Positions 19,245 through 61,735 of a stretch of DNA of 64,000 nucleotides are shown here, one piece after another (the stretch's first letter is position 1; the number at the start of each line of letters is the position of its first letter). The DNA is taken from assembly GCA_029582155.1 (NCBI GenBank), contig CM055906.1, forward strand, positions 11,899,101 through 11,963,100, in the 5' to 3' direction. Under the pieces are notes generated by a model that saw nothing but the letters and a program-made list of their open reading frames with translations, had not been told where the DNA came from and did no database searches. The position numbers and the translations under genes were made by a program. The stretch is from Panopea generosa (taxonomy: Eukaryota > Mollusca > Bivalvia > Adapedonta > Hiatellidae).

Positions 19245-20170
19245 TGACCTAATATAGGTGGTCTTCTTAATAAATACTGGGACTTGTTAAAATTGTCTAA
19301 AAATGAGAGTGTTAAACAGTTACATGCATACATTGTAGCGTACAGACCTCCAAAAAATATAAAGACATTTTGATACAATCTAAATTTACAAGCTATAACG
19401 CATGTACATTTAGTTCTGTTAAATGTAATAGGTGTAGATGCTCTCATTGTTGCAATATTGTACAAGATTCAAGTATCTCTAGTTACGTTACTGTCGATAA
19501 GTTTGGTATACATTGTAATACTGATTGCACATCTAAAAATGTTATATATCTTATGACATGTAAAAAATGTAAAGTACAGTTTGTTGGACAAACAAATCAA
19601 AATGTATCAAAACGTATGAATAGTATGAAGTTTCTCGGATCCAATGTTTTCATCTAATGTTGCATTTTAACACCAATGCTCATTAAATAGATTTTTCATT
19701 TATTCCATTCAACACTGTTAGTAATAACTTTGATCGTTTGTGTAAGGAAACTTATTGGATTCACAAATTACAAACATTGTATCCATTTGGACTTAATGCA
19801 AAACAGCTATATGATATGTAGAGATGCTTTCATTGAACAGTTATATGTACTATCGTTTGTTCCTATTTCTCTTTATTTACTACTATTTATAGGAATTTAA
19901 GTATCATTTCCCCCCGATTCTTCATGTACTTGTGTTTGCGACAATATTCTTTATGAGCTGTGTCTTGTCGCGTGTTTGGCGTCTTGATAAATAATTCTTT
20001 GAGTCAAATTTCGCGCGGCGCGGCTCATTTGTTTTTCCCGCTATTTTAACGTCACATTATGTAACGTTACTTCCGGTGTTTATATATTTAATATTCCATG
20101 ATTAAGGCGATAAGCCAAAACGTTGGTATTAAATTTTAACTAACGTTTTTTCACGTGTTGGTGTTTTTTT
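19245..20170 (+). mobile_element. Penelope-like element, 5'-truncated, with GIY-YIG endonuclease remnant
   Basis: The open segment at 19370-19657 includes NVIYLMTCKKCKVQFVGQT, the GIY-YIG nuclease signature of Penelope-like retroelements. Paired cysteines lie upstream (KCNRCRCSHC). Before it, AYRPPKNIKT is in another frame, and after it YWIHKLQTLYPFGLN (near 19760) resembles the C-terminal end of these proteins in yet another frame. The reverse transcriptase is absent. The 3' region contains a possible decayed hammerhead ribozyme. The element sits in an intron of the TRRAP-like locus, antisense to it. Confidence 0.75.
20082..20132 (+). ncRNA. Candidate degenerate hammerhead ribozyme of the PLE
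   Basis: ATGATTA at 20098-20104 sits where CUGAUGA is expected. A stem-loop GGC-GATAA-GCC at 20106-20116 and AAAAC in place of GAAAC follow. Outer flanks ATTTAATATTCC and TTGGTATTAAAT can pair. Penelope-like elements are known to carry hammerhead motifs. The core changes would probably abolish cleavage. Confidence 0.35.
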
Positions 20171-36893: not shown

Positions 36894-38032
36894 CTTCTGG
36901 ATCTGGATCTGGATCTGGATCTGGATTAGTACGTTGTAGAGCCTCTCGGCATATGCACAACGGAAAGAAGGTCTGGGAAACACTGATTAGTCCCAATGAA
37001 AGACGGCCGATTTAAAGCCGTTGACTGTATTTGCGCACACAACACTTTCTTCCAGTTGGTTCCAGTCTATAATAGTTTTTGGAAAGTAAGAATTCTGGAA
37101 TGAGATGCTTTTGCACTGCACTAATTTAAAGCCTTTGCTGTTATTTAAAGAATGTTTTTCAACAATATTGTCTGATTTGCAGCCTAAGAATTTCCTGGCT
37201 TTAATTTGGCGCTTGCCGCGGACAGGGGTTAAATAGTCAAGACATTGCATAGCTGACACCAGCCCCTCGACCACCTTATAGAAAAAGGATAACCTCTGTG
37301 CTTTCCTTCGGTCTTGGAGGAGGGGTGGTAATTGTAGGTCGTTCATCATACGTGTGACGCTACCTGGGTCCCGTGACTTGTAGTCTCCTGTGATGAAGCG
37401 GACGGCTTGGCGCTGTACCTTCTCTAGTGTAAAGATGTCCTTTTGTTGGTAAGGATCCCAGACGATGGAACAGTATTCTAGGGTTGATCTTACTAGTGAC
37501 AGGTATGCCATTTTTCTGCATGATGGTGGACAGTGTCTTAGGTTCCTTCTTAGGAAGCCAATGGTCGAGTTTGCTTTTTTGGAGATCTTGGTGATGTGAG
37601 CGCTCCACTTAAGGTCTTCGGATATTGTCACTCCAAGATAGGGGTTTTCTGGTACTTGTTGTAGTATCGTTTTGTCTAGTTCATAGAAATGTGACGAGTT
37701 GCTGTTCATGCTCATCAAGTAGCATTTCTTTGCATTAAAACACATACCCCATGTATCTGCCCATGTCTCTAGTTGTTGTTGGTCCTGTTCGAGGGTGGTG
37801 TGATCTTCTCCCGAGTCCACGGATACTGCTTCCGATGTTTCTCCATCAACCACAACCTGCATTGTCCTATTAGTAAGGAAGTCTGTCAGACAGGCATTGA
37901 TATTTCCATCTACTCCATAGAGTTCCATCTTGTGAAGTAGCCTTCTGTGGGGGACTGTGTCGAATGCCTTGGAAAAGTCGAGGATGACCATGTCGATCTG
38001 TGCCTCTTTGTCCGAGTTTCGCAGAAGGTCGT
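36894..38032 (-). mobile_element. Non-LTR retrotransposon with RT lacking its catalytic motif
   Basis: The frame stops at 36987-36989 and runs to the assembly gap, so it is 5'-incomplete. It contains the palm motif A region (DMVILDFSKAFDTVPHRRLL) and downstream thumb-like sequence (RSTLEYCSIVWDPY). Between VSVDSG and EDHTTLEQ, where related elements carry the VPQG and F/YADD segments, about 40 residues are missing with the frame kept. The enzyme therefore cannot be active. The 3' UTR ends in a (GGATCT)n tract at 36896-36927, read as (AGATCC)n on the element's strand. CR1/Jockey-type affinity is likely. Confidence 0.85.
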
Positions 38033-38532
38033 NNNNNNNNNNNNNNNNNNNNNNNNNNNNNNNNNNNNNNNNNNNNNNNNNNNNNNNNNNNNNNNNNNNN
38101 NNNNNNNNNNNNNNNNNNNNNNNNNNNNNNNNNNNNNNNNNNNNNNNNNNNNNNNNNNNNNNNNNNNNNNNNNNNNNNNNNNNNNNNNNNNNNNNNNNNN
38201 NNNNNNNNNNNNNNNNNNNNNNNNNNNNNNNNNNNNNNNNNNNNNNNNNNNNNNNNNNNNNNNNNNNNNNNNNNNNNNNNNNNNNNNNNNNNNNNNNNNN
38301 NNNNNNNNNNNNNNNNNNNNNNNNNNNNNNNNNNNNNNNNNNNNNNNNNNNNNNNNNNNNNNNNNNNNNNNNNNNNNNNNNNNNNNNNNNNNNNNNNNNN
38401 NNNNNNNNNNNNNNNNNNNNNNNNNNNNNNNNNNNNNNNNNNNNNNNNNNNNNNNNNNNNNNNNNNNNNNNNNNNNNNNNNNNNNNNNNNNNNNNNNNNN
38501 NNNNNNNNNNNNNNNNNNNNNNNNNNNNNNNN
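38033..38532. other. Assembly gap of 500 N
   Basis: Exactly 500 undetermined bases, a typical placeholder for unknown length. Long frames crossing it are artefacts. Confidence 0.99.
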
Positions 38533-38845
38533 ACAGACGCATATAAAACTGCGCACATAGTACAACGGTTTGTTACAGTTCTTCAATACAGAACACAGAC
38601 GCTATAAAACTGCGTACATAGTACAACGGTTTGTTACAGTTCTTCAATACAGAACACAGACGCATAAAACTGCGTACATAGTACAACGGTTTGTTACAGT
38701 TCTTCAATACAGAACACAGACGCATAAAACTGCGTACATAGTACAACGGTTTGTTACAGTTCTTCAATACAGAACACAGACGCAATAAAACTGCGTACAC
38801 AGTACACGGTTTGTTACAGTTTTTCCATACAGAACACAGAGGCAT
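38533..38845. repeat. 60-bp tandem repeat beside the gap
   Basis: Just over five copies of a unit starting ACAGACGCATAAAACTGCGT and containing ACAACGGTTTGTTACAG. It starts at the gap edge, so the array probably caused the gap and may be larger. Confidence 0.95.
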
Positions 38846-38957
38846 ATAATACCATTATAACGTCGGATATATCAGGATCATCATCTGCCCTGTTCATTTA
38901 TCAACGAGGTATGAGATCCAACACCAGGTATAGACTATATTTTCTTACCTGTAGTTT

Positions 38958-40605
38958 GACGATATTACTTTCTAAATAATAAAGTTCTTAACTTAACTTT
39001 ATATTATTGATTTATTTGAAATATTTCGGCAGAACTTCGTAAAACTTTATTATTACTTTTTTTCCCGAAATATTTTGGCAAATCTTTATTATTATTCTGT
39101 TATTTTCAAAGACAATATTACTTTCTAAATAAGGTTTAAAACTTTATTATAATTTATTTATTTCGATATATTGAATCAGAACTTTATACTTATTTTTTTA
39201 TTTCGAAATAAGTCTAGAATTTTATTATATTTATAGAATCGAAATAAGTTTAGAACTATTTTACGAAATATTTTGGTAGAACTTTATAATTATTTTTTTA
39301 TGTTTCGATATAAATAAATAATAATTTAAGTTCTTATACTTTTTTATAAAGTATTAAAGTCATTGAAAATAGTACAATAAGAATAAAGTTCTGCAAAAAT
39401 ATTTGGTAAAAATAAATAATAATAAAGTTCTAAACTGATTTCGAATCAATAAATAATAATAAAGTTTAAACTAATTTCGAATCTAAACGTCTTAATCTTA
39501 TTTAGAAAGTATTGAAGTCTTTGAAAATAATACAATAAGAATAAATTTCAGCCTAAATAATTCAAGTTAATCAATACTAATATTAATACTAATAAATTTT
39601 TAAACTTATTTCGATATATTTCGAAATAAATAAATGATAATAAAGTTCGACCATATTATTTCCAATCAATAAATAATAGTAAAGTTCTAAACTTATTTCG
39701 AAATAAATAAATAAAAATAAAGTTCTAAAACTTATTTAGAAAATATCAAAGTCTTGGAAAATAAAGTTCTGCCATAAAATTAAGAATAAATTAGTAATAA
39801 TGAAGTTCTAAACTTATTTCGAAATAAATAATTAATAAAAAAGTTCTGCCAAAATATTTCGAAATAAATAAACAACAATAAAGCTCTAAACTTATTTCGA
39901 AATAAATAAATAAAAATAAAGTTCTAAAACTTATTTAGAAAATATCAAAGTCTTGGAAAATAAAGTTCTGCCACAAAATTAAGAATAAATTAGTAATAAT
40001 GAAGTTCTAAACTTATTTCGAAATAAATAATTAATAAAAAAGTTCTGCCAAAATATTTCGAAATAAATAAACAACAATAAAGCTCTAAACTTATTTCGAA
40101 ATAAATAAATAATAATAAAGTTCAAAAACTGGTTTAGAAAATATTAAAGTCTTTGAAAATATTACAATAAGAATAAAGTTCTGCCAAAATATTTAGAATC
40201 AATTAGTGATAATAAAGTTCTGAATTTATTTCGAAATAAATGAATAATAATAAAGTTCTGCTAAAATATTTCAAAATAAATGAATAACAATAAAGCTCTT
40301 AACTTATTTCGAAATAACTAGATGATAATAAAATTCTAAAGCTTATTTAGAAAGTGTTAAAATCTTCGAAAATAATACATTAAGACTAAAATTCTGCAGA
40401 AATATTTCGAATCAATAAATAATGATAAAGTTCAAAACTTATTTCGAAATACATCAGTGATAATAAACTTCTTAATCTTATTTAGAAAGTATTAATCTTT
40501 GAAAAAAAAAAATAAGAATAAAAAATCCTGCAGAAATATTTCGAAATTAATAAATAATAATAAATATATAAACATATTTCGAAATAAATAAATAATAAAC
40601 CAGAT
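38958..40605. repeat. AT-rich array with recurrent TTATTTCGAAATAA palindrome (left arm)
   Basis: Degenerate units of AATAAAGTTCTAAACTTATT and TCTGCCAAAATATTTCGAAA alternate. TTATTTCGAAATAA is its own reverse complement and occurs many times. A higher-order unit of 199 bp is repeated from 39721 and 39920. Confidence 0.9.
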
Positions 40606-40647
40606 TATACCATTAAGATTGATATTAACATTTTCTAAATTATTGCG

Positions 40648-40869
40648 CTAAATTTCTTTAAAGTATACTCTAACACCGTCGCTATAACGTTTTGTCCTAC
40701 GGTTAAATTTAGGACGAGGACAATCGAAATATTCATAACCTTCAATTTTCGCATTTGCTGATTGAGAAGTCCATGTTTCAGTTAACAGCAATATGTCATA
40801 ATCGGAAATAAAATTTATAAATTCACAATCGTTCAGTTTTGAGTTAATACCCTGCACATTCCATAGCAA
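40648..40869 (-). pseudogene. LINE endonuclease fragment (left arm)
   Basis: Reads MLWNVQGINSKLNDCEFINF, then DILLLTETWTS and YEYFDCPRPKFNRRTKR. This is the N-terminal part of the APE-type endonuclease/exonuclease/phosphatase domain of non-LTR retrotransposons, including the catalytic-type TETW motif. It ends at a stop after 73 codons and the rest of the element is absent. An identical copy lies at 54005-54226. Confidence 0.8.
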
Positions 40870-41623
40870 AAAAAGATAACTGTTTCTTTCTGATTCCTAT
40901 TGCACTGCACCGTCACGGACCGAATCTCCTCTAAACAACTAAAGAAACGAGGAATCGCAACTGACGCCGATCCCCAAAAAGTCAATATTTAATTAGCATA
41001 AACATATACATGTTCATCTCCATCATGATAGTACAATAATAATATATATTATAAGCCATAGTCTAACACATCCACAACGCACTCTTCACGTATAAAAATG
41101 TGTAAAGAAAATATTAAAATGTATATATATTTAAATCGTGCAATTTCTATAAACCCTTTCCCACTCGTTCTGATGGTTATGATGGTGACAATATCACGGT
41201 ACACCGGTTATTTCGTAACGCAATCGCCTGCATGATCCAGATTATTGTTTACATTGCGCTAAAATTAAAAATGTCCACTATTAATGACCCCCTCCCCCCT
41301 ATCCGGATCCAGGTGAATCCCGGGTTTGGGATGACGAAAGTTAGATGCGTTTATTGACGGAGAAATAGATATTGGTCAAAGACTATCGTTTCCCTTCCAG
41401 GTAACGAACGAAAGAACTTATTGTGCATCATAAATGCATTTATTCTTGGTTGAAGTTATGAAACTTTGTTAAGATTTTAATAGATATAGATCTAATTAAT
41501 TTACAGTAATCGCTATAGTCTGTGTTTAATTTTTGAAGGATAAAATATATTTCTCATATTGTTTAGCTTAAAATTTATAATGATAAGTATAAAATGCATT
41601 AATTAAACGTTCATAATTAGCAA
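40870..41623. other. Unassigned sequence of the left arm
   Basis: No gene or element was recognised. The mirrored stretch in the right arm is 53251-54004. Confidence 0.5.
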
Positions 41624-41695
41624 CATCATTATAGCTCAGTGGTAGAATATTCGCTTCACGCTCTGGCGCCCCGGGATCGATCCTGGGACTCAATC
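41624..41695 (+). pseudogene. tRNA-like sequence (left arm)
   Basis: TATAGCTCAGTGGTAGAATA resembles an A-box and D arm, and CCCGGGATCGATCCTGGG resembles a B-box and T arm. The acceptor stem does not pair and the T stem has a mismatch, so I call it a tRNA pseudogene or SINE head. Mirrored at 53179-53250. Confidence 0.55.
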
Positions 41696-41792
41696 AATTT
41701 TTTATTATTTTTTTTTATATAATCAAGAAATAACATTTTACAGTCTATTACAGAGGCATTCAGTTTAAGATATACACAGTTCATCAATAGTA

Positions 41793-43369
41793 TTGGCGGA
41801 TAATTTCGAGGACGTGATCTCTGGAAAGAACGAATCCATAAACTCTCAACTGTCTACCAGTGTGAAAAATAGTGTGCACGAAATCGGACACATATTGCGG
41901 GAGATTATAGAAACACTGGTGTTATTAGGTCAACAAAACATAGCAATCAGGGGCCACACAGAGGACAAAAGTAATTTTATGGCCAACCTTCAAAGTAAGG
42001 CAAAGAATGATGAAATTCTAGCCGACCATCTTGCCAACGTACATTAAAAAGCAAAGTATACGTCACCTGACGTATTATACAATTATGCGGCGACCAGTTA
42101 TTATCTGAAATAACGGATGAATGTAAACGCTCTGGTTGTTATGCTATAATAGCAGACGAGGCCACTGACAGCGCAACAAGGGGACAGCTATCTATTTGTG
42201 TTTGGTACGTTAAAAAAGTGGAGAATAAGGAGGTCCATGAACAATTTATTGGATTTTTGACATGTATATCAATTAAAGGAACTTACTTGGCGCAATTGAT
42301 TTTAACATATTTACAGGAGTGTGGCCTAGACATTCTCAAAATACGTGCGCAATGCTACAACGGAGCCTCAAATCCCATTGCTTGAACCTTTCACTAGTGC
42401 ATAGCTCAAAGATCCAGTGTGTACGCACGATGATGGCAACGGTTCAGGAAGTTGCTTTCGCCTTCGACTATTCGGCAAAGCGTCTATCTGCATTTATGTA
42501 TGAGCTAGCTACTAATGCAGTAACTAAGGAAACATGGATGGCCGAAGGAAGCTCAAAACACTTTGCGAGACCAGATGGATGAGCAGAGCGGACTCTCTAT
42601 CTACATTCAAAACATCATTCCGTGTAGTTGTCCATGGTTTAGAACATCTTCAAGAAGACGGGGACGTGAAGGCGGGACTGTACTTGAATGCCATTCTTCA
42701 ATTCCCGTTCATAGTTACACTAGTCGCTAGCGAATTAAGTTGGTCTGACCTCAATGTTACAAAAGGTACATCTCACACTATGTATGTCGTAATTATGGTA
42801 AAATGACAATATTTCATTCTGTAAATATGTTAAAAATCAGAATGATATCAGGATAAACTATTTATCTAATAGACCGTGTGATATGCGATATACCAGCATG
42901 CTTGTCACGTCCGACAGACCCGACTCTATCGCACCATACATGATACTAGTGACCGTTCACATGCACCGTTATTCAGTGAAACCATCTCACTGAATTTATG
43001 TTTTAAAAGTGACCGAATTATCCTTCTCAAAATTCCAACATGATCACATCGTCTCACTGTTTTCCCCATTTAATTCTATATAATATTTTATAAAAATGTA
43101 TGATTGATTGCTACTTAAATTATGCGCATAAAAATGTACATGCGCGTAATATGCTTTGTTTTTGTGTTGATATGCCGTTAATATCATACAACCATTGATT
43201 CTAGCTTCAAATACGTTTTACTCCAGGTCGACATGGATCTGATAGAGGTAGTACGTGAGACAAAGGTAGTCATGCAGATATTTCGCGACGAGCGGGCAGA
43301 CCAGCTTGTTTGGGATGCGATGTTCCAAGAGGCCACAGATATTGCATCCGAGTTCCGAGTACATTAATA
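41793..43369 (+). pseudogene. hAT-type transposase remnant (left arm)
   Basis: Collinear pieces in shifting frames match DUF4371/ZMYM1-like hAT transposases: REIIETLVLLGQQNIAIRGH (41793-42041), YAIIADEATDSATRGQLSIC (near 42140), RAQCYNGA (near 42345), SHCLNLSLVHSSKIQCVRTM, LKTLCETRWMSRADSLSTF (42560), and after a probable intron MDLIEVVRETKVVMQIFRDE (43231). At least three frameshifts and an internal deletion after CYNGA are visible. The C-terminal dimerisation domain is missing. The mirrored copy is at 51505-53081. Confidence 0.85.
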
Positions 43370-43734
43370 GACTGTGTTCATTTCAATTTCTCAATTGCCT
43401 AACAACCATGTATGATTATACAACCAAACAACTGTACATAATATAAAATCATATATGGTCAGTTAACGATAAGAATGTAAAAGATCCTATGATTTCCTTT
43501 AAAAAAAACTACTTGCTTGACTTGGTTTGTTGTTTATTTATTACATTTATAGCGAAATGCGTATATTGATTGCTTGTGTTTAAACAGCTACAAGTCTGTG
43601 TGTGTATTTATGTGTATTTATGTTTTATCACTGACGCATGTTCATCAGAAATAACAGCAAATAAAGAAATACTTTTGAAATCTGAAAATATTAATATCTA
43701 ATAAAACTATTCATATTGTTGAATGTTTGTTTGC

Positions 43735-44018
43735 ATTGAGTTTAACGACGTTTTTCAACACTTGTTCAGTTTTATACGGCAGTCAGTTAACCTAACCATG
43801 TTTCCAGGGTTTTCTAACCAGTACTCCACACATTTTCTCTGCAAGTAACTGACAACTTTCTCACATGAGTCAAAGTGAGAAACGAATGGCGCGGGACACA
43901 ATGTCTTTTGTCAAATCGTTACAAATAAATGTAGCAGGACCTGGGCTCGAACCCATGCGGGAACAACCCCATTTGACCGACAGACCTGAACACTATCCAC
44001 TGCGCCACGGGGGCCCGG
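43735..44018 (-). repeat. SINE family D, full length (left arm)
   Basis: The minus-strand head CCCGTGGCGCAGTGGATAG plus GCATGGGTTCGAGCCCAGG shows both tRNA promoter boxes. The tail ends AACAAGTGTTGAAAAACG. Confidence 0.85.
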
Positions 44019-44154
44019 TGTACCAGTATTGAACAGTGTGCATTAGTGTGTATATCGGTTTCATGAAAACAATACACACCTGTACCTGTATTGAACTGTG
44101 TACATTTATTTCATGAAACCGCTTTAAATTCAAATGATCACAAAATAATGAAAA

Positions 44155-44353
44155 CCAATCAATCAATCAATCAATATATCAATCAATATATCAATCAATA
44201 TATCAATCAATCAATCAATCAGTAAATCAATATATAAATCAAGCAATAATTAATTAAGCCAATAATTCAATAAGTAAAAAAAAAATAAATAAATAAATAA
44301 AAAATAAATAAATAAACGAACGAACGAACGAACGAACGAACGAATGAATGAAT
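44155..44353. repeat. AATC, AAAT, CGAA and AATG microsatellites (left arm)
   Basis: A compound tract with seven CGAA units. The right-arm counterpart has nine. Confidence 0.95.
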
Positions 44354-44354
44354 G

Positions 44355-44620
44355 AATTTCATTCTTTAATTTAGCGTCGTTTTTGCAACAGTATGTCAGT
44401 CGTGTTATTGCGGTCAGTTAACCTAAGCGGGTTCCTATGTCTCTTACCGGCACATAGCTGTTCTTTTACAAGTAACTGACTGCTGCATCACCTGATATGA
44501 AGAAATGGAGGACGAATTACTTATAGATACAGTGTCGTAGCTCAAATCGTCACGAAGAACAAGATGCTCACCGCTTTGGGTGAACACCAAACGCCGGATC
44601 TGAAGTTGTGCGAGCTGACT
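44355..44620 (-). repeat. SINE family D, second copy (left arm)
   Basis: GCGTCGTTTTTGCAACAG, GGTCAGTTAACCTAAGCGGG and AAGTAACTGACTGCTGCATC match the 43735-44018 SINE in the same orientation. The head is diverged. Confidence 0.75.
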
Positions 44621-45237
44621 AAAATATTGCGCTCTCCATTATACATGTAGTATAGAGTCGTTAACGAACCACGCAAGTGTACAAGAAGTGAATGTATTGT
44701 ATGAAATGACTCTGATGGCGCTTAGATACTTGCAAATTCATTGTTAAATTTCAAGCTTAATTGGAGGATTCCCTGTATAGCATACATCATTGTAGTGAGG
44801 GTTTGATAAGGTAGACTGAAGTTAGTTAATATTCGTCTTTTGTCTTTCGGTATCTAACTGGAATCTTAATTTATCATCCTCCAATATTGCAGGGTTACAT
44901 ACTTAAATATCAAAAGACGAAAAACGAATATCAAACTTACTTTCAACGGTAGTCTAATAAATTGAACGTATTCTCGAGTTCCGAATCAGTACTAACTTTA
45001 GTGTGTGTTGTGCCGTAAAACATAAATGAAATTATATTGCTAGTAGCTCACAACTTCCCCTCACGATACTTGTAGAAGAAGGCGAATGAAATTTCGACAC
45101 AATGTCGACCATTTAAGTTGATCGAAGCACTTTGGTTTCTCTTAAGGTGATATCACTAAATAGAAGCAGTAAGTGAACCAGTGGTTTGAGAATGACATCT
45201 TTGTAGTCGAACCAGAGGTGCATAGTTCGATCATTCT

Positions 45238-46160
45238 ATAGTCAAACTATATACAAATTATATACAAACTATTGACACCATGGTCGCTGGTTGAACTATA
45301 TACAAACTATACACAAACTATATACAATCTATATAAAAACTATATACAAACTAAATACAAACTATATACAAACTATAGACACCATGGTCGCTGATTGAAC
45401 TATATACAAAATATAGACACCATAGTCGTTGGTTGGACTATAAACAAACTATAGACACCATGGTCGCTGGTTGGACTATATACAAAATATAGACATCACG
45501 GTCGCTGCTTGGACTATGTACAAACTATAGACACCACGGTCGCTGGTTGAACTATATACAAAATATAGACACCAAGGTCGCTGCTTGGACTATGTACAAA
45601 CTATAGACACCACGGTCGCTGGTTGAACTATAGACAAAATATAGACACCAAGGTCGCTGCTTGGACTATGTACAAACTATAGACACCACGGTCGCTGGTT
45701 GAACTATATACAAAATATAGACACCAAGGTCGCTGCTTGGACTATGTACAAACTATAGACACCACGGTCGCTGGTTGAACTATAGACAAACTATAGACAC
45801 CACGGTCGCTGGTTGAACTATAGACACACTATAAACACCATGGTGGCTGGTTGAACTATATACAAACTAAGGACACTTATGGGCGCAGGTTGGACTATAG
45901 ACAAACTATAAACACCATCGTCGCTGCTTGAACTATAGACAAACTATAGACACCACGGTCGCTGGTTGAACTATAGACACACTATAAACACCATGGTGGC
46001 TGGTTGAACTATATACAAACTAAGGACACTATGGGCGCAGGTTGGACTATAGACAAACTATAAACACCATGGTCGCTGCTCGAACTATATACAAACTATA
46101 GACACCATGGTCGCTGCTTGAACTATATATAAACTATAGACACCATGGTCGCTGCTTGAA
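45238..46160. repeat. 38-bp satellite (left arm)
   Basis: About 24 units of GAACTATATACAAACTATAG followed by ACACCATGGTCGCTGGTT, with variant units (GGACACTATGGGCGCAGG) recurring in order. Confidence 0.95.
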
Positions 46161-46966
46161 CTACCTCATATTCGGTGTTTGATTGACTCATTTTGCCGAG
46201 CACATGACTTGCAAATTGTTTTTTTACAGGTACACTCCTTTAAATATTATAACATTATAATTCAAATCTCATTATCATATATGTATTTAAAGCATTTTCA
46301 TTGGACAACATCAATTTTTTAAAGACTTCTATTTTCGATAAAACCCTAGAGCAGGACTACTTTTACATTTCCCGCGTAAACAAAGAAGCATCGACATTTT
46401 GATGGTCGGTTTAACAGTATACGAACTTAAATGACGTGCACAACGGATCCACGTATATTTTAATAATAAAGTACAACAAAAACAAGTTTTAGCTACAGTC
46501 CTAGCTGTTTTATTCGGTTTATTGTTTTATAGATTTGTTTGGTTCAGCGATTTAACCGGGCGCCATAATCAGATCAGAAACAATGAATTAGGTCACAAAA
46601 TGTTCAGATTTGAGATGTATTTTGTACAATTGAACACAATGTTTACCGAACGTGAGTGCTAGCCGTTGACAAAACTCTCCATCAACCAATTTATTCAACA
46701 CAGGAAAAATGAAATAAGAACATGTACATGTAGTTGAAGTTCAGAAGCAAACGATCGTGAGACAATGTAAATACACAAACCCTGCGTTACCTTCAGACTT
46801 TATTTGATTTGTGCGTGATTCGACATTCTTTACACATGCATAAAAAACAGAAAAAAATAATTTAATCCTATAATAATACTACATTTGTTTATTTTCCGCA
46901 CTGCATTTTATACTTGCTATACAGGTTTACATCGCAGATCAACATAATTTATTGAAGAATTAAAAG

Positions 46967-47097
46967 CCGAATTTTGAGTTTTCGCAAGGAGATGAAGATC
47001 ATTAGGCCAGTTTAATGTTCGTGAAGCCTTAAGTGCTTCTCGGCAACATTAAACTTGTCTTGTGTTTTAAACCACCCGATGAAAACTCAAAATTCGG
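46967..47097. repeat. Foldback hairpin in the spacer
   Basis: CCGAATTTTGAGTTTTC at 46967-46983 is exactly inverted at 47081-47097. Inner arms CCAGTTTAATGTT and AACATTAAACTTG also pair. It may be a MITE or a structured RNA gene; no homologue is present in the window. Confidence 0.75.
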
Positions 47098-48480
47098 TTT
47101 CAAAGGAAGTCTATAAAAAAAACAGGCTAGAAATGTCTTTAAAACCAAATAATTATTAACATGAATAAAAAGCATCTTATTATCATGAATAAAGCAAATC
47201 CCCCAAAACGTGACAAAGTCGATATTTAAAATGGAGTGGTAAACGAAATCCCCATTCTTAAAATATACAGCACTTAGCTACTGTTTGACGTCATTCAGAC
47301 TCTTTCTAAGACGAAACATTTTTACTACGTGTTAACCTGTATCAATGGCGGATCTACTCTTAAAAAATCGGCGTATGTCTCCTCCCTCCTTTACTCTCAC
47401 ATGCTATTAAAATGCACTATAGTTGTACTGAAAACCTGTTTGCTCGTTCAGATTTTGTGCTGCGCTCCCCTCCAAGCTGAAATCCTGGATCCACCCATGT
47501 GTATTATTTATACGTCACAAAATGTGTTGCACTTTTAAGCGGGAAATCTATTTTAGTCTAACCTAGGCGCACAGCCCAAGTTAGGAAATCCCTTTTTTAT
47601 ATTAGTTTGATAGGTTTAAATATATATTGTTGGCTAAACGAGGTCAGTGAGTATATACAGTCATGTTATATTAAAAAATATATATTTTAGCCAATTTTAA
47701 AAGTTTGATAAATCCTTATAAATTCCCTTTAATCCTTATAATTACATTATATTTTCCAACTATTTTAGATAAAACTATTGCGTTATTTTTGCCAATTTGA
47801 CATAGAAGCAGCAAATTATACGCATTAAACCACAAAGCAAAGGTCATGAATGTAACGGCGACTTTGTCAACATACTGAATACACGCATTTGTTTGGTATC
47901 TTATGAACTTAACCGCAACGTGACTCTCACAAGAAAAAAACAGAATGGTGCAACAAATGAAATGCAAATTGATCCGATTTAGCTCTGCCCAGCTGCAAAT
48001 GTTTTTCACTGAGAAATGAAATGCAGTTAATATATATAGTTCATTTAGGCTAATTGCAATAAAATGTAAATATTGAGTAATAAAGGCATCTGGTGTATAA
48101 ATACAGGTCAAATAAAATGTCTAATACTAACATGCACTTGATGGTATCTTTTCTGCCTGTCTGCCTGACAGTCCGTCTGTTCGACCTATCGCCCGCCAAT
48201 ACGACCTTCAACACTAAAAATATTCATCCGTCCGTCCGTCCGTCCACCCGCACATCCATGTATCAATGTATCCATTCCTTCATCGTGCTTATAATACTCA
48301 TGAGTAGCGCCCAGCTTTGTTCGTCCGTGCGTACAAATATATGTCACACATGTCATTCTTTCATTGTCATCAAATAATATAAATTTAGAGGTAGCCATAA
48401 TATGAAACTTAGAATTTGAAACTTAAAACTTAAAAAACTTGGAAATTTAATATTTGATATTTACCAGTAAGCAATATTGA

Positions 48481-48600
48481 TTATAGTCCAACCAGCGACC
48501 GTGGTGTTTAAAGTTTGTCTATAGTCCAACCTGCGCCCATAGTGTCCTTAGTTTGTATATAGTTCAACCAGCCACCATGGTGTCTATAGTGTGTCTGCTG
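48481..48600. repeat. Orphan 38-bp satellite units outside the right arm
   Basis: ATAGTCCAACCAGCGACCGT and following units belong to the array inside the arm but lie on the spacer side of its inner edge. About 25 bp of non-repeat sequence and the mirrored boundary separate them from the arm. Confidence 0.85.
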
Positions 48601-48706
48601 TTGTATATGCAGGTATGTAAACCATAAAGGAGTGTACCTGTAAAAAAACAATTTGCAAGTCATGTGCTCGGCAAAATGAGTCAATCAAACACCGAATATG
48701 AGGTAG

Positions 48707-49628
48707 TTCAAGCAGCGACCATGGTGTCTATAGTTTATATATAGTTCAAGCAGCGACCATGGTGTCTATAGTTTGTATATAGTTCGAGCAGCGACCATGG
48801 TGTTTATAGTTTGTCTATAGTCCAACCTGCGCCCATAGTGTCCTTAGTTTGTATATAGTTCAACCAGCCACCATGGTGTTTATAGTGTGTCTATAGTTCA
48901 ACCAGCGACCGTGGTGTCTATAGTTTGTCTATAGTTCAAGCAGCGACGATGGTGTTTATAGTTTGTCTATAGTCCAACCTGCGCCCATAGTGTCCTTAGT
49001 TTGTATATAGTTCAACCAGCCACCATGGTGTTTATAGTGTGTCTATAGTTCAACCAGCGACCGTGGTGTCTATAGTTTGTCTATAGTTCAACCAGCGACC
49101 GTGGTGTCTATAGTTTGTACATAGTCCAAGCAGCGACCTTGGTGTCTATATTTTGTATATAGTTCAACCAGCGACCGTGGTGTCTATAGTTTGTACATAG
49201 TCCAAGCAGCGACCTTGGTGTCTATATTTTGTCTATAGTTCAACCAGCGACCGTGGTGTCTATAGTTTGTACATAGTCCAAGCAGCGACCTTGGTGTCTA
49301 TATTTTGTATATAGTTCAACCAGCGACCGTGGTGTCTATAGTTTGTACATAGTCCAAGCAGCGACCGTGGTGTCTATATTTTGTATATAGTCCAACCAGC
49401 GACCATGGTGTCTATAGTTTGTTTATAGTCCAACCAACGACTATGGTGTCTATATTTTGTATATAGTTCAATCAGCGACCATGGTGTCTATAGTTTGTAT
49501 ATAGTTTGTATTTAGTTTGTATATAGTTTTTATATAGATTGTATATAGTTTGTGTATAGTTTGTATATAGTTCAACCAGCGACCATGGTGTCAATAGTTT
49601 GTATATAATTTGTATATAGTTTGACTAT
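48707..49628. repeat. 38-bp satellite (right arm)
   Basis: Mirror of 45238-46160, with the same order of variant units. Confidence 0.95.
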
Positions 49629-50245
49629 AGAATGATCGAACTATGCACCTCTGGTTCGACTACAAAGATGTCATTCTCAAACCACTGGTTCACTTACTGC
49701 TTCTATTTAGTGATATCACCTTAAGAGAAACCAAAGTGCTTCGATCAACTTAAATGGTCGACATTGTGTCGAAATTTCATTCGCCTTCTTCTACAAGTAT
49801 CGTGAGGGGAAGTTGTGAGCTACTAGCAATATAATTTCATTTATGTTTTACGGCACAACACACACTAAAGTTAGTACTGATTCGGAACTCGAGAATACGT
49901 TCAATTTATTAGACTACCGTTGAAAGTAAGTTTGATATTCGTTTTTCGTCTTTTGATATTTAAGTATGTAACCCTGCAATATTGGAGGATGATAAATTAA
50001 GATTCCAGTTAGATACCGAAAGACAAAAGACGAATATTAACTAACTTCAGTCTACCTTATCAAACCCTCACTACAATGATGTATGCTATACAGGGAATCC
50101 TCCAATTAAGCTTGAAATTTAACAATGAATTTGCAAGTATCTAAGCGCCATCAGAGTCATTTCATACAATACATTCACTTCTTGTACACTTGCGTGGTTC
50201 GTTAACGACTCTATACTACATGTATAATGGAGAGCGCAATATTTT

Positions 50246-50511
50246 AGTCAGCTCGCACAACTTCAGATCCGGCGTTTGGTGTTCACCCAAAGCGGTGAGC
50301 ATCTTGTTCTTCGTGACGATTTGAGCTACGACACTGTATCTATAAGTAATTCGTCCTCCATTTCTTCATATCAGGTGATGCAGCAGTCAGTTACTTGTAA
50401 AAGAACAGCTATGTGCCGGTAAGAGACATAGGAACCCGCTTAGGTTAACTGACCGCAATAACACGACTGACATACTGTTGCAAAAACGACGCTAAATTAA
50501 AGAATGAAATT
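50246..50511 (+). repeat. SINE family D, second copy (right arm)
   Basis: Mirror of 44355-44620. Confidence 0.75.
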
Positions 50512-50512
50512 C

Positions 50513-50719
50513 ATTCATTCATTCGTTCGTTCGTTCGTTCGTTCGTTCGTTCGTTCGTTTATTTATTTATTTTTTATTTATTTATTTATTTTTTTTTTAC
50601 TTATTGAATTATTGGCTTAATTAATTATTGCTTGATTTATATATTGATTTACTGATTGATTGATTGATTGATATATTGATTGATATATTGATTGATATAT
50701 TGATTGATTGATTGATTGG
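50513..50719. repeat. Compound microsatellite (right arm)
   Basis: Mirror of 44155-44353, with nine TTCG units instead of seven. Confidence 0.95.
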
Positions 50720-50855
50720 TTTTCATTATTTTGTGATCATTTGAATTTAAAGCGGTTTCATGAAATAAATGTACACAGTTCAATACAGGTACAGGTGTGT
50801 ATTGTTTTCATGAAACCGATATACACACTAATGCACACTGTTCAATACTGGTACA

Positions 50856-51139
50856 CCGGGCCCCCGTGGCGCAGTGGATAGTGTTCAGGTCTGTCGGTCA
50901 AATGGGGTTGTTCCCGCATGGGTTCGAGCCCAGGTCCTGCTACATTTATTTGTAACGATTTGACAAAAGACATTGTGTCCCGCGCCATTCGTTTCTCACT
51001 TTGACTCATGTGAGAAAGTTGTCAGTTACTTGCAGAGAAAATGTGTGGAGTACTGGTTAGAAAACCCTGGAAACATGGTTAGGTTAACTGACTGCCGTAT
51101 AAAACTGAACAAGTGTTGAAAAACGTCGTTAAACTCAAT
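50856..51139 (+). repeat. SINE family D, full length (right arm)
   Basis: Mirror of 43735-44018. The tRNA-like head reads forward from CCCGTGGCGCAGTGGATAG. Confidence 0.85.
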
Positions 51140-51504
51140 GCAAACAAACATTCAACAATATGAATAGTTTTATTAGATATTAATATTTTCAGATTTCAAA
51201 AGTATTTCTTTATTTGCTGTTATTTCTGATGAACATGCGTCAGTGATAAAACATAAATACACATAAATACACACACAGACTTGTAGCTGTTTAAACACAA
51301 GCAATCAATATACGCATTTCGCTATAAATGTAATAAATAAACAACAAACCAAGTCAAGCAAGTAGTTTTTTTTAAAGGAAATCATAGGATCTTTTACATT
51401 CTTATCGTTAACTGACCATATATGATTTTATATTATGTACAGTTGTTTGGTTGTATAATCATACATGGTTGTTAGGCAATTGAGAAATTGAAATGAACAC
51501 AGTC

Positions 51505-53081
51505 TATTAATGTACTCGGAACTCGGATGCAATATCTGTGGCCTCTTGGAACATCGCATCCCAAACAAGCTGGTCTGCCCGCTCGTCGCGAAATATCTGC
51601 ATGACTACCTTTGTCTCACGTACTACCTCTATCAGATCCATGTCGACCTGGAGTAAAACGTATTTGAAGCTAGAATCAATGGTTGTATGATATTAACGGC
51701 ATATCAACACAAAAACAAAGCATATTACGCGCATGTACATTTTTATGCGCATAATTTAAGTAGCAATCAATCATACATTTTTATAAAATATTATATAGAA
51801 TTAAATGGGGAAAACAGTGAGACGATGTGATCATGTTGGAATTTTGAGAAGGATAATTCGGTCACTTTTAAAACATAAATTCAGTGAGATGGTTTCACTG
51901 AATAACGGTGCATGTGAACGGTCACTAGTATCATGTATGGTGCGATAGAGTCGGGTCTGTCGGACGTGACAAGCATGCTGGTATATCGCATATCACACGG
52001 TCTATTAGATAAATAGTTTATCCTGATATCATTCTGATTTTTAACATATTTACAGAATGAAATATTGTCATTTTACCATAATTACGACATACATAGTGTG
52101 AGATGTACCTTTTGTAACATTGAGGTCAGACCAACTTAATTCGCTAGCGACTAGTGTAACTATGAACGGGAATTGAAGAATGGCATTCAAGTACAGTCCC
52201 GCCTTCACGTCCCCGTCTTCTTGAAGATGTTCTAAACCATGGACAACTACACGGAATGATGTTTTGAATGTAGATAGAGAGTCCGCTCTGCTCATCCATC
52301 TGGTCTCGCAAAGTGTTTTGAGCTTCCTTCGGCCATCCATGTTTCCTTAGTTACTGCATTAGTAGCTAGCTCATACATAAATGCAGATAGACGCTTTGCC
52401 GAATAGTCGAAGGCGAAAGCAACTTCCTGAACCGTTGCCATCATCGTGCGTACACACTGGATCTTTGAGCTATGCACTAGTGAAAGGTTCAAGCAATGGG
52501 ATTTGAGGCTCCGTTGTAGCATTGCGCACGTATTTTGAGAATGTCTAGGCCACACTCCTGTAAATATGTTAAAATCAATTGCGCCAAGTAAGTTCCTTTA
52601 ATTGATATACATGTCAAAAATCCAATAAATTGTTCATGGACCTCCTTATTCTCCACTTTTTTAACGTACCAAACACAAATAGATAGCTGTCCCCTTGTTG
52701 CGCTGTCAGTGGCCTCGTCTGCTATTATAGCATAACAACCAGAGCGTTTACATTCATCCGTTATTTCAGATAATAACTGGTCGCCGCATAATTGTATAAT
52801 ACGTCAGGTGACGTATACTTTGCTTTTTAATGTACGTTGGCAAGATGGTCGGCTAGAATTTCATCATTCTTTGCCTTACTTTGAAGGTTGGCCATAAAAT
52901 TACTTTTGTCCTCTGTGTGGCCCCTGATTGCTATGTTTTGTTGACCTAATAACACCAGTGTTTCTATAATCTCCCGCAATATGTGTCCGATTTCGTGCAC
53001 ACTATTTTTCACACTGGTAGACAGTTGAGAGTTTATGGATTCGTTCTTTCCAGAGATCACGTCCTCGAAATTATCCGCCAA
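51505..53081 (-). pseudogene. hAT-type transposase remnant (right arm)
   Basis: Exact mirror of 41793-43369, with the same frameshifts, stop codons and internal deletion. The decay therefore preceded the inverted duplication. The transposase cannot be functional and is not the cause of the duplication by itself. Confidence 0.85.
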
Positions 53082-53178
53082 TACTATTGATGAACTGTGT
53101 ATATCTTAAACTGAATGCCTCTGTAATAGACTGTAAAATGTTATTTCTTGATTATATAAAAAAAAATAATAAAAAATT

Positions 53179-53250
53179 GATTGAGTCCCAGGATCGATCC
53201 CGGGGCGCCAGAGCGTGAAGCGAATATTCTACCACTGAGCTATAATGATG
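53179..53250 (-). pseudogene. tRNA-like sequence (right arm)
   Basis: Mirror of 41624-41695. Confidence 0.55.
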
Positions 53251-54004
53251 TTGCTAATTATGAACGTTTAATTAATGCATTTTATACTTATCATTATAAA
53301 TTTTAAGCTAAACAATATGAGAAATATATTTTATCCTTCAAAAATTAAACACAGACTATAGCGATTACTGTAAATTAATTAGATCTATATCTATTAAAAT
53401 CTTAACAAAGTTTCATAACTTCAACCAAGAATAAATGCATTTATGATGCACAATAAGTTCTTTCGTTCGTTACCTGGAAGGGAAACGATAGTCTTTGACC
53501 AATATCTATTTCTCCGTCAATAAACGCATCTAACTTTCGTCATCCCAAACCCGGGATTCACCTGGATCCGGATAGGGGGGAGGGGGTCATTAATAGTGGA
53601 CATTTTTAATTTTAGCGCAATGTAAACAATAATCTGGATCATGCAGGCGATTGCGTTACGAAATAACCGGTGTACCGTGATATTGTCACCATCATAACCA
53701 TCAGAACGAGTGGGAAAGGGTTTATAGAAATTGCACGATTTAAATATATATACATTTTAATATTTTCTTTACACATTTTTATACGTGAAGAGTGCGTTGT
53801 GGATGTGTTAGACTATGGCTTATAATATATATTATTATTGTACTATCATGATGGAGATGAACATGTATATGTTTATGCTAATTAAATATTGACTTTTTGG
53901 GGATCGGCGTCAGTTGCGATTCCTCGTTTCTTTAGTTGTTTAGAGGAGATTCGGTCCGTGACGGTGCAGTGCAATAGGAATCAGAAAGAAACAGTTATCT
54001 TTTT
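53251..54004. other. Unassigned sequence of the right arm
   Basis: Mirror of 40870-41623. Nothing was recognised. Confidence 0.5.
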
Positions 54005-54226
54005 TTGCTATGGAATGTGCAGGGTATTAACTCAAAACTGAACGATTGTGAATTTATAAATTTTATTTCCGATTATGACATATTGCTGTTAACTGAAACA
54101 TGGACTTCTCAATCAGCAAATGCGAAAATTGAAGGTTATGAATATTTCGATTGTCCTCGTCCTAAATTTAACCGTAGGACAAAACGTTATAGCGACGGTG
54201 TTAGAGTATACTTTAAAGAAATTTAG
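54005..54226 (+). pseudogene. LINE endonuclease fragment (right arm)
   Basis: Identical in translation to 40648-40869 (73 codons). It is an isolated APE-type endonuclease N-terminus with no reverse transcriptase nearby. Confidence 0.8.
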
Positions 54227-54269
54227 CGCAATAATTTAGAAAATGTTAATATCAATCTTAATGGTATAA

Positions 54270-56465
54270 TCTGGTTTATTATTTATTTATTTCGAAATAT
54301 GTTTATATATTTATTATTATTTATTAATTTCGAAATATTTCTGCAGGATTTTTTATTCTTATTTTTTTTTTTCAAAGATTAATACTTTCTAAATAAGATT
54401 AAGAAGTTTATTATCACTGATGTATTTCGAAATAAGTTTTGAACTTTATCATTATTTATTGATTCGAAATATTTCTGCAGAATTTTAGTCTTAATGTATT
54501 ATTTTCGAAGATTTTAACACTTTCTAAATAAGCTTTAGAATTTTATTATCATCTAGTTATTTCGAAATAAGTTAAGAGCTTTATTGTTATTCATTTATTT
54601 TGAAATATTTTAGCAGAACTTTATTATTATTCATTTATTTCGAAATAAATTCAGAACTTTATTATCACTAATTGATTCTAAATATTTTGGCAGAACTTTA
54701 TTCTTATTGTAATATTTTCAAAGACTTTAATATTTTCTAAACCAGTTTTTGAACTTTATTATTATTTATTTATTTCGAAATAAGTTTAGAGCTTTATTGT
54801 TGTTTATTTATTTCGAAATATTTTGGCAGAACTTTTTTATTAATTATTTATTTCGAAATAAGTTTAGAACTTCATTATTACTAATTTATTCTTAATTTTG
54901 TGGCAGAACTTTATTTTCCAAGACTTTGATATTTTCTAAATAAGTTTTAGAACTTTATTTTTATTTATTTATTTCGAAATAAGTTTAGAGCTTTATTGTT
55001 GTTTATTTATTTCGAAATATTTTGGCAGAACTTTTTTATTAATTATTTATTTCGAAATAAGTTTAGAACTTCATTATTACTAATTTATTCTTAATTTTAT
55101 GGCAGAACTTTATTTTCCAAGACTTTGATATTTTCTAAATAAGTTTTAGAACTTTATTTTTATTTATTTATTTCGAAATAAGTTTAGAACTTTACTATTA
55201 TTTATTGATTGGAAATAATATGGTCGAACTTTATTATCATTTATTTATTTCGAAATATATCGAAATAAGTTTAAAAATTTATTAGTATTAATATTAGTAT
55301 TGATTAACTTGAATTATTTAGGCTGAAATTTATTCTTATTGTATTATTTTCAAAGACTTCAATACTTTCTAAATAAGATTAAGACGTTTAGATTCGAAAT
55401 TAGTTTAAAACTTTATTATTATTTATTGATTCGAAATCAGTTTAGAACTTTATTATTATTTATTTTTACCAAATATTTTTGCAGAACTTTATTCTTATTG
55501 TACTATTTTCAATGACTTTAATACTTTATAAAAAAGTATAAGAACTTAAATTATTATTTATTTATATCGAAACATAAAAAAAATAATTATAAAGTTCTAC
55601 CAAAATATTTCGTAAAATAGTTCTAAACTTATTTCGATTCTATAAATATAATAAAATTCTAGACTTATTTCGAAATAAAAAAATAAGTATAAAGTTCTGA
55701 TTCAATATATCGAAATAAATAAATTATAATAAAGTTTTAAACCTTATTTAGAAAGTAATATTGTCTTTGAAAATAACAGAATAATAATAAAGATTTGCCA
55801 AAATATTTCGGGAAAAAAAGTAATAATAAAGTTTTACGAAGTTCTACCGAAATATTTCAAATAAATCAATAATAATAAAGTTAAGTTAAGAACTTTATTA
55901 TTTAGAAAGTAATATCGTCTTTGAAAATAATAGAATAATAATAAAGATTTGCCAAAATGTTTCGGGGAAAAAAGTAATAATAAAGTTCTTAACTTATTTC
56001 GAAATAAATAAATAACACTAAACGTCAAAAAAAATATTCAGGAAGTATTCAGTTAAGTCTTTGAAATTAATACAATAAGATTAAAGTTCTGCCGAAATAT
56101 TTCAAATAAATCAATAATAATAAAGTTCTAAATTTATTTCGATATTTTTCGAAATAAATGAATAATAATAAAGTTCTGCCAAAATATTTCCAATAAATAA
56201 ATAATAATAAAGTCCTCAACTTATTTCGAAATAAATAAATAATAATAAAGTTCTGCCAAAATATTTCGTATGAATAAATTAAAATAAAGTTCTTAACTTA
56301 TTTCGAATCAATAAATAATAAAGAAAGTTCTAACAATATTTCGAAATATATAAATAATAATAAAGTTCTAAACTTATTTCGAAATAAATAAATAATAATA
56401 AAGTTCTGCCAAAATATTTCCAATAAATAATAATAAAGTCCTCAACTTATTTCGAAATAAATAAA
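54270..56465. repeat. AT-rich palindrome array, extending beyond the right arm
   Basis: Mirror of the left array up to 55919. It then continues about 550 bp with the same kinds of unit. The outer breakpoint of the duplication therefore falls inside the array. Confidence 0.9.
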
Positions 56466-57155
56466 TAAATTATATTAGCCAAGCGTCCAAAAGAACTAAA
56501 CATAAAATAACAAGCAATTGTGTGACTCGGACGAACGCGACAAAGGGGATGTTTTGATTGGCCGGCTTGTGACAATGGCTGCATGTGGTATAGTTTATAT
56601 TCGGCTCGACAGACAGATAGTATAGTGGCAATGATCACTTCATGATAAGCTGTGATTAGTGTCTCGCGAGATCATCGCCTCTGATTTTTGTGTGACGAAT
56701 TATTATCAAATCAAAAGGTAAAACATACTAAAATGGCGTTTTTAAACACTTAGTGAAACTTGAATTCGTAAATACATTTTTATTAGTAGCTAGAAGACAT
56801 GCTTGTAACTGTGTAATTTATTCAAAATAGTAATAACAAATAAACACTTTATTTTTTCTGAGGTCAAAGTTCAATATTAAACTTTTTTTTTTAAAAATCG
56901 TATTTAGTTTTTGATAGAATTTGATTTAAATACACATTGTTAAAAGAGAGGGTATGCTTTTTTATTTAAGTATCTATCCATTTACATGTCCCTCGCTAAC
57001 AATCCTTGTATAAACTACTGATACTGCCGTCTCATAATTGTAACACGGGTTCAATCCCCGTCTTATCAGCCCATCAGTAGTACAGGCAGTATTTTCTTCA
57101 TGTCTCGTAAGTTACTACGCGCTACTAAGATTAATATGGATGTGCTTTATGTAGT
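56466..57155. other. Unassigned sequence with a tRNA-like remnant
   Basis: Near 57045-57062 ACGGGTTCAATCCCCGT forms a perfect T-arm. Only about 20 nt separate it from any candidate acceptor strand, so this is a truncated tRNA or SINE head. Confidence 0.45.
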
Positions 57156-59046: not shown

Positions 59047-59756
59047 ACCGTACTATTAACCTTCATTAATGATACAGACGTACACACCCTGTAATGAACC
59101 TTCATTAATGACAAGGACGTATATACCGTGTACTGAACCTTCAGCAATGACTCTGACGTTTATACCATGTACTGAACCTTCATCAATGTTACGGACGTAT
59201 AAACCGTGTAATAATCCTTCATTAATGATACGGACGTATATACCGTATCCTGAGCTTTTATCAACGGGAAGACGTATATACCGTGTACTGAACCTTCATC
59301 AATGTTACGGACGTATAAACCGTGTAATAATCCTTCATAAATGACACAGACGAATATGATATGGACGAATATATCGTGTCATGGGCTTCATCAATGATAC
59401 GGACAATTACACCGTGTCATGAGCCTACATTAACTAAATGGACATATATACCGTGCCGTGAACCTTCATCAATGATACGGACGTATATACCGTGTCGTGA
59501 ACTTTCATCAATGGCATGGACGAATATATCGTGTCATCGGCCTCATCAATGATACGGACACTTATACTTTGTCATGAACCTTCATTAATTAAATGGACGT
59601 ATATACCGTGTCATGAACCTTCATCAATGATACGGACGTATATACCGTGCCGTGAACCTTCATCAATGATACGGACGTATATACCGTGTCGTGAACCTCC
59701 AACAATGATACCGACGTATAAACCGTGTCATGAACCTTCATCAATGATACGGACGT
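59047..59756. repeat. 39-bp satellite, left part
   Basis: About 18 units of CATCAATGATACGGACGTAT followed by ATACCGTGTCATGAACCTT. The unit is 13 codons long, giving artefact frames such as IPCHEPSSMIRTY. Confidence 0.95.
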
Positions 59757-60017
59757 AGTTTAAACATATTTTATTGCCAAATAAACACATATTACAATAT
59801 TTATCATGCATATAAGTCAAATACAATTTAAGGCAAAAGGGTCTGGCCACAAGTTCTCTCAACATTAGATTCGGCCATTCCCTTTCAACTATATTTTGCA
59901 ATTTTAACGATGGTTAAGATATATTACATTCCCGGCAAGTAAATATGAATGACATAAAGTGTAGTTAATGAGAAAGTATACATGCGTACTCACGCAAACA
60001 CACACGGACACACGCAC

Positions 60018-60051
<34 letters not shown>

Positions 60052-61632
60052 GCACGCACACATACGCACACACGCCCGCACACACATATATACACAGACA
60101 TTCACATGCAAACATACATACACGCACACACATATGAATGTATGTTGAGGTATTTACTGAAAAGCGAAAATCATTTTATTTTTTGCTTTTTTTTTTTTAA
60201 ATGAAATTAAATATTAAATTATTAGAAAATATACACACACACACACATAAATGTATATAAAGTATTATCTGGTTGGTCACTGATATTCACGCGATCGGTT
60301 ATGGTGTGGTAGCTGTTACAGGGTCAGGGGGAGAAAAACAAAATACTATAACTAAATTAATTATTGGAATCTTCTGGATTCGTGAATGAAAGTTTGAACA
60401 CTTTCGAAGAGATTTATGTTATCTTCACATGAATGATCGTCTGATCCATATAACAGCTTTTTGACATTGAGTGGATGGAACAACCTTGTGTTTTGAAATA
60501 ATTTTATTCTTTGTTGTACAAAAAGAATGCAGTTAAAAAAGTAATGTTCAGCATCTTCCACTCCATGCGTACAGATACATGTTGGATAATTTTCTATATG
60601 ATTAACGTAAAGATCATGATTTAAGTTACTACAATTATTTCTTAGTCTTGCATGCTGTGCAGATAATATTCGTATACCATAGTTAAAGTGTTTTGGAACT
60701 ATAACTGGATGAAAACAAGTATTTATAAGGTTTCGTTTATATATTGATAATGATGGTGCTTCCCTTAAAGCAACTGATAGTTTATTCCACAACGAAACTG
60801 TTGATGGAATGAAAGAATTTGCAAAGAGCTCAGTTCGTCTGGTAATGATATCAAGATCTTGTGAGTTTCTAAGATCGTATGCTGTTCTACTATTAACTGT
60901 ATCGGGAAATAAATCTATTAAGTAGTTTGGTGTCATACCATGTTTTATTTTGTATGCCAATATCAATTTTTGATACTTTCTTCTGTCTGACAGAGATAAC
61001 CAGCCAATTTCTTTATATAATTTTGAAATGGATATTGATCTTGTTGTGCCAGTAACAATTCTGGCAGCTTCATGTTGAATATTTTCGAAGTTGTCTTTCT
61101 CGTAGCAGGTACAGTTATCCCACACTACCGAAGCGTATTCTAAAATTGGGCGAATAAATGATATATAAATTTGATTAAGAGAGTCCCTACGTATTTTAAA
61201 TTTAACTTTTCTCATCATGCCAAGAATTTTGGATGCAGACTGTATTATGTTTTCAATATGAGCGTGCATTTTACCATTATTACTGATTGTAAGGCCCAAG
61301 TGTTTGTGATTTTCAACAAATGTTACAGGAATATTTTCAAACAATAGTGATGGATTACGAACTTTTTTTTATGTGAATAATATTGCTTCAGTTTTCAAGG
61401 GATTGAACGTAACTAACCACTGTTTTGACCAAGCAGATAACATAATTAGATCGTGATTTATTATACCTTCAAGATCTGATATATTTGTGGCAGAGCTCGC
61501 TAAGGAAGTGTCATCTGCAAACAAACGTGCAAGACTTAATAAATTGTCTGCTATATCATTTACGTAAATTAGAAATAGTAATGGACCCAGGACAGACCCC
61601 TGCGGTACACCAGCATTGACGGTCATTGTATG
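59757..61632 (-). mobile_element. 5'-truncated non-LTR retrotransposon inserted in the 39-bp satellite
   Basis: The minus strand enters the element at TVNAGVPQGSVLGPLLFLIY (RT motif B region), followed by RLFADDTSL (catalytic F/YADD). The frame then meets one TAA at 61369-61371 beside a run of A's and continues in the same frame to a natural-looking stop at 60361. The distal part includes IRPILEYASVVWD and a Cys/His cluster CICTHGVEDAEHYFFNC typical of the zinc-binding C-terminus of such proteins. The 3' UTR contains a CA microsatellite and ends AATAAAATATGTTTAAACT at 59757-59775 (reverse strand). Motifs A and earlier are absent. Confidence 0.85.
59992..60110. repeat. CA microsatellite in the LINE 3' UTR
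   Basis: CA dinucleotides with CG and CC interruptions. A shorter CA run lies at 60232-60247. Confidence 0.95.
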
Positions 61633-61635
61633 AGA

Positions 61636-61735
61636 AGACGTATATACCGTGTCGTGAACCTCCACCAATGACACCGACGTATATACCGTGTCATGAACTT
61701 TCATCAATTATACGGACGTATATAACGTGACCTAA
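61636..61735. repeat. 39-bp satellite, right part
   Basis: GACGTATATACCGTGTCGTG and following units are the same satellite as 59047-59756, now on the other side of the LINE. Confidence 0.95.

Follow-up and report, generated by a model that had tools for sequence, protein, structure and literature searches.

A large inverted repeat lies in a 64,000-nucleotide stretch of the genome of the bivalve Panopea generosa (GenBank assembly GCA_029582155.1, contig CM055906.1, positions 11,899,101 to 11,963,100 of the forward strand), which is referred to here as the window. Two arms of about 7.3 kb stand in opposite orientation on either side of a spacer, and the left arm lies next to the end of an assembled contig. 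The features of the structure and its immediate surroundings, numbered from the first base of the window, are as follows.

38033 to 38532: assembly gap of exactly 500 N; the sequence to its left belongs to a different contig.
38533 to 38957, forward strand: left outer flank, comprising a 60-bp satellite along with about 108 bp that do not belong to the array; apart from this flank, nothing separates the left arm from the contig end.
38958 to 46242, forward strand: left arm, 7,285 bp, with abrupt ends on both sides.
38958 to 40598, forward strand: AT-rich satellite of the left arm, 18.2% G+C, truncated at 38958.
39003, 39300 and 39468: differences between the arms, a single T being absent from the left arm at each.
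39030: C/T substitution between the arms.
40651 to 40896, reverse strand: endonuclease fragment (Exo_endo_phos), Pfam score 27.5 bits against a cut-off of 24.5; mirrored in the right arm.
42071 to 42382, forward strand: decayed DUF4371 fragment, E value 1.2e-6, 29.1 bits, below the cut-off of 32.1; mirrored in the right arm.
44345: difference between the arms, the left arm lacking 8 bp (two 4-base microsatellite units).
45360 to 46163, forward strand: 38-bp minisatellite of the left arm, 21 copies.
45496: T/C substitution between the arms.
45878: difference between the arms, the left arm having one additional T.
46243 to 48624, forward strand: spacer between the arms, 2,382 bp.
48482 to 48597, reverse strand: three further copies of the 38-bp minisatellite, within the spacer, 27 bases past the inner end of the right arm and in the orientation of that arm.
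48625 to 55919, reverse strand: right arm, 7,295 bp.
48704 to 49506, reverse strand: 38-bp minisatellite of the right arm, 21 copies.
55920 to 56477, forward strand: AT-rich satellite beyond the right arm, 18.3% G+C; the rows of the array run to 56468, and the last bases were added by eye.

By self-BLAST, the two arms are reverse complements over 7,296 columns at 99.808% identity, with 2 mismatches and 5 gap openings. A previous sequence-only reading of the window had proposed arms that were inverted over their whole length, and the limits that it assigned to them are exact. Inverted matches elsewhere in the window are few and short (6 outside 38958-56500 among matches of at least 60 columns with low-complexity sequence masked, the longest covering 209 columns at 80%), ruling out chance as the origin of the pair. 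Substitutions separate the arms at 2 of 7,283 sites, or 0.027% (95% interval, 0.003 to 0.099%), and the copy number of the minisatellite is the same in both (21.1 each). Among the origins suggested in the sequence-only reading, a very young structure fits these figures best.

A mis-join of two haplotypes, each arm being one allele of a single locus, had also been suggested, and it would yield an inverted pair beside a gap. This explanation fits badly, because the substitutions are too few for ordinary heterozygosity: the probability of observing 2 or fewer in 7,283 sites is 6e-29 at a heterozygosity of 1%, 1e-13 at 0.5%, 6e-5 at 0.2%, and 0.024 at 0.1%. The shared minisatellite copy number likewise speaks against it. 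Only at a heterozygosity of about 0.1% or less would joined haplotypes cease to be unlikely, and we regard this origin as very improbable.

From the outside to the inside, each arm consists of the AT-rich satellite (18% G+C), a middle portion of 36% G+C with the coding fragments, microsatellites, and the 38-bp minisatellite. The tandem arrays in each arm bear out the satellites previously described as common to both. The pseudogenes noted in the same account stand in part, in that the Exo_endo_phos fragment, which appears to be of long interspersed nuclear element (LINE) type, exceeds the Pfam cut-off, whereas the fragment of DUF4371, a domain that we take to be connected with hAT transposases, does not. 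No tool supports the short interspersed nuclear elements (SINEs) that were also listed: ARAGORN calls no transfer RNA (tRNA) in the arms or spacer, Rfam at its gathering thresholds returns no family anywhere in the window, and tRNA-like stretches near 41630-41690 and 43950-44015 were recognized by eye only. The left arm and spacer contain 20 open reading frames of at least 60 amino acids (12 in the arm, 7 in the spacer, and 1 spanning the junction), a set from which exons shorter than 60 amino acids would escape. Seven of these frames, searched against Pfam to an E value of 1, produced only sub-cut-off matches (E value of 0.07 or worse) besides the two fragments, and the remaining 13, searched to an E value of 0.01, produced no match. 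At the level of sequence, as judged from these frames, Rfam, and ARAGORN, no gene was found in the structure and no function is evident.

The arms had previously been treated as symmetrical, but they differ at their ends: the repeats of the right arm carry on into the adjoining sequence on either side, whereas the left arm breaks off abruptly on both. At the outer end of the right arm, the segment at 55741-55835 repeats 153 bp onward at 55894-55990, across the arm end at 55919, matching in 88 of 97 columns; when only the portion outside the arm end is considered (55767-55835 against 55920-55990), identity is 93%. The 71 bases adjoining the outer end of the left arm align to the same satellite piece (55767-55835) at 51%, compared with a mean of 49% in 500 shuffles of the left flank, 34% of which reach the observed value. 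The satellite of the left outer flank has 5.2 copies of a 60-bp unit at 38533-38849 (Tandem Repeats Finder), and the flank as a whole (38533-38957) has no match elsewhere in the window at an E value of 1e-3. At the inner ends, the 38-bp minisatellite resumes past the right arm (48489-48597, three matches of 35 to 40 bits), and none was found between 46159 and 48488, and so none past the left arm.

The differences between the arms can be set against neighboring repeat units. By this comparison, the left arm is the odd one at four of the seven (39003, 39468, 45496, and 45878), and the difference at 44345 cannot be polarized from repeat units. Because the ends of the right arm run on into their surroundings, those of the left arm are abrupt, and the differences are mostly odd in the left arm, the right arm is probably the source and the left arm its inverted copy.

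The spacer has 48 matches in the window, of which 45 join its minisatellite end (48474-48596) to the minisatellites of the window, 1 is to itself, and 2 are to the contig on the left (171 columns at 72% and 108 columns at 75%). The match to itself is an imperfect palindrome of about 137 bp at 46964-47100, 73% identical to its own reverse complement, which is perhaps a miniature inverted-repeat transposable element.

Inverted arms around a loop are also the outline of a giant foldback transposon, with the arms serving as terminal inverted repeats. TTT stands at the end of the left flank and again at the start of the right flank, a possible 3-bp target duplication, but such a triplet is trivial in sequence of this kind, and it is the only feature of an insertion site that the two flanks share. 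No Pfam transposase match was obtained in the spacer frames of at least 60 amino acids. This candidate was rejected because the outer end of the right arm lies within a continuous satellite array, leaving no insertion site, and we assign it almost no credence. Capture of the Helitron type was rejected as well, since the copy does not have the TC...CTRR termini of such elements (judged by eye only).

Near-identical inverted arms are also found in the palindromes of mammalian sex chromosomes and in some inverted repeats of Caenorhabditis elegans, and the sequence-only reading had raised the possibility of ongoing gene conversion, which would make the pair an old palindrome with arms prevented from diverging. 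High arm identity is typical of such palindromes in the portions of the sources available (PMC8981503, PMC3723533, PMC1803023). The differences cluster toward the outer end, which conversion might be least able to reach, and the part of the arm without satellite has a G+C content (36.0%) slightly higher than that of the spacer (34.2%), the right flank (33.4%), and the left contig (35.2%). This is the direction that GC-biased conversion would be expected to give, but the difference is small. According to the same portions of these sources, palindromes of the X chromosome show conservation among primates, and pairs of genes take part in the repeats of C. elegans. In contrast to those maintained repeats, no gene that could be preserved was found in the structure described here, the 20 frames having yielded just two fragments resembling mobile elements. 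Moreover, as would be expected of a young copy, the right arm still passes into its flanks without a break, unlike the left arm. Gene conversion is possible, but nothing in the structure calls for it, and we consider it improbable.

The reading that we favor, with confidence slightly better than even, is that of a real inverted segmental duplication of very recent date, with a spacer separating the copies, produced through fold-back or template switching during repair. What is observed is a pair of near-identical arms, a spacer, and a right arm that runs on into its surroundings on either side; the direction of copying, the site of the break, a repair in two steps, and the very presence of the structure in the organism are inferred. 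The right arm and spacer would predate the left arm. Either a break or a stalled fork, located where the spacer begins on the left (about 46243), would release a free 3' end, and this end would fold back, or change template, onto the complementary strand some 2.4 kb distant (about 48625). From there, 7.3 kb of the right arm would be copied outward, until at about 55919 a second switch or an end-joining event would link the copy to unrelated DNA carrying a satellite (38957 and further left).

As in fold-back inverted duplications, the spacer is unduplicated (2,382 bp, judged within the window), and one copy is continuous with its surroundings and the other is bounded by new junctions. The same order of arm, few-kilobase spacer, inverted arm, and far end joined to other DNA characterizes the human class as described in the portion of PMC3907307 available. 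All 21 sequenced human junctions in that portion have a spacer, ranging from 766 to 70,466 bp with a median of 3,428 bp, so that the size of the spacer found here fits the class. Of those 21 junctions, three show about 300 bp of repeat homology and 13 among the other 18 show inverted microhomology of 2 to 8 bp; insertions occur at five (PMC3907307). The arm here is just 7.3 kb, unlike the human duplications in the available table rows of that source, which measure about 1 to 42 Mb and lie beside terminal deletions. Next to the left junction in Panopea generosa, a perfect 7-bp AT hairpin occupies 46246-46261 (with a 2-bp loop determined by eye), its first base being the fourth of the spacer. 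Of the 36,500 control positions taken from the window, 1.2% have a 7-bp hairpin that starts within 10 bases, which makes this a weak and post hoc association.

If the reading is correct, the structure may be a structural variant caught young, and it may be present in one haplotype only. It is possible but rather doubtful that it represents, in full, a germline fold-back duplication of 7.3 kb seen soon after its birth, in which source and copy are told apart by satellite register alone.

Several observations weigh against a duplication of this kind. The contig bearing the structure starts at 38533, only 425 bp outside the left arm. The extended mutual similarity of the two spacer ends is no greater than that of shuffles. 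Five of the seven differences between the arms are single-T or microsatellite-length changes, as expected of consensus errors, and, given differences of this type, the arms could be one DNA read twice. Four of the seven lie in the outermost 511 bp, a span that makes up 7.0% of the arm (P = 7e-4 if differences were evenly spread, post hoc). When measured on the whole AT-rich part (22.5% of the arm), this crowding has a P value of only 0.05, such that it may reflect the AT-rich sequence itself. The right arm leans odd at two of the seven differences (39030 and, weakly, 39300), and the count of polarities draws on the repeat units of both arms, in which copies are counted about twice, and on indel contexts that differ in length by at least 1 base.

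Assembly errors are expected this close (425 bp) to a contig end, making a self mis-join a serious rival. In this case, the left arm would be the right arm reassembled in reverse, through a chimeric read or two or an erroneous path in the assembly graph, and scaffolded over the 500-N gap, a feature absent from the sequence-only reading. A gap of 500 N is usual for a Hi-C scaffolder, and the adjacency of the DNA to the left of the gap is a scaffolding statement. The proximity of the contig end and the few differences, largely of consensus-error type and crowded toward that end, would follow from such an error. The true divergence of the arms would be below 0.027% were the differences close to the contig end due to consensus errors. 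A reverse transcriptase (RT) frame on the reverse strand at 36990-38030 (RVT_1, 35.5 bits) enters the gap from the other side, showing that the neighboring contig ends within a retroelement.

Near-perfect inverted repeats at contig ends recall the palindromic artefacts of long reads and assemblies, which are documented for amplified and nanopore libraries in the available text of PMC6218980 and PMC12870357. In the first of these sources, many inverted duplications in an assembly of the gorilla Y chromosome were resolved once reads had been corrected; 96.5% of the mapping distances between palindrome parts were within read length (PMC6218980). Palindromes from amplified DNA may thus have a loop of kilobases. 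The foldback read artefact defined in the available part of PMC12870357 turns within 200 bp and has no kilobase spacer, whereas the arms here are separated by 2,382 bp and there is a second, unrelated junction. A simple fold-back artefact should continue beyond the left arm into the sequence that follows 55919, but 425 bp of unrelated sequence is found instead, so that two separate false joins would be needed. In addition, the substitution at 45496 sits 7 kb inside the contig. Considering the evidence on both sides, an assembly artefact is a tentative explanation to be taken seriously, to which we give well under an even chance.

Elsewhere in the window, an array of 3.4 kb (6622-10069) is built of units of about 42 bp, with long open stretches on both strands and about 91% identity between shifted copies. 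At 59758-61640, an RT element (RVT_1, 41.6 bits, 61372-61707, reverse strand) lies between two stretches of what seems to be one 39-bp minisatellite (59058-59757 and from about 61636, by eye), as if inserted in the array. A weak GIY-YIG match at 19316-19654 on the forward strand (19.3 bits, cut-off 22.6) is perhaps a Penelope-like remnant. Ten translations from the left half of the window searched against Pfam, and one searched against the PDB, returned weak matches only. The only tRNA called by ARAGORN in the window is a tRNA-Ala (TGC) at 5749-5820 on the reverse strand, which is either a gene or the head of a SINE.

Whether real or an artefact, the structure implies no gene or function. If it is an artefact, it represents an error of about 7.3 kb in the assembly. 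If it is real, it would be a fresh example of a known repair accident, in which the continuity of satellite arrays serves as a simple discriminator between source and copy. Should such small cases prove common in this genome, the AT-rich satellite and minisatellite arrays may routinely seed fold-back repair and thereby structural variation.

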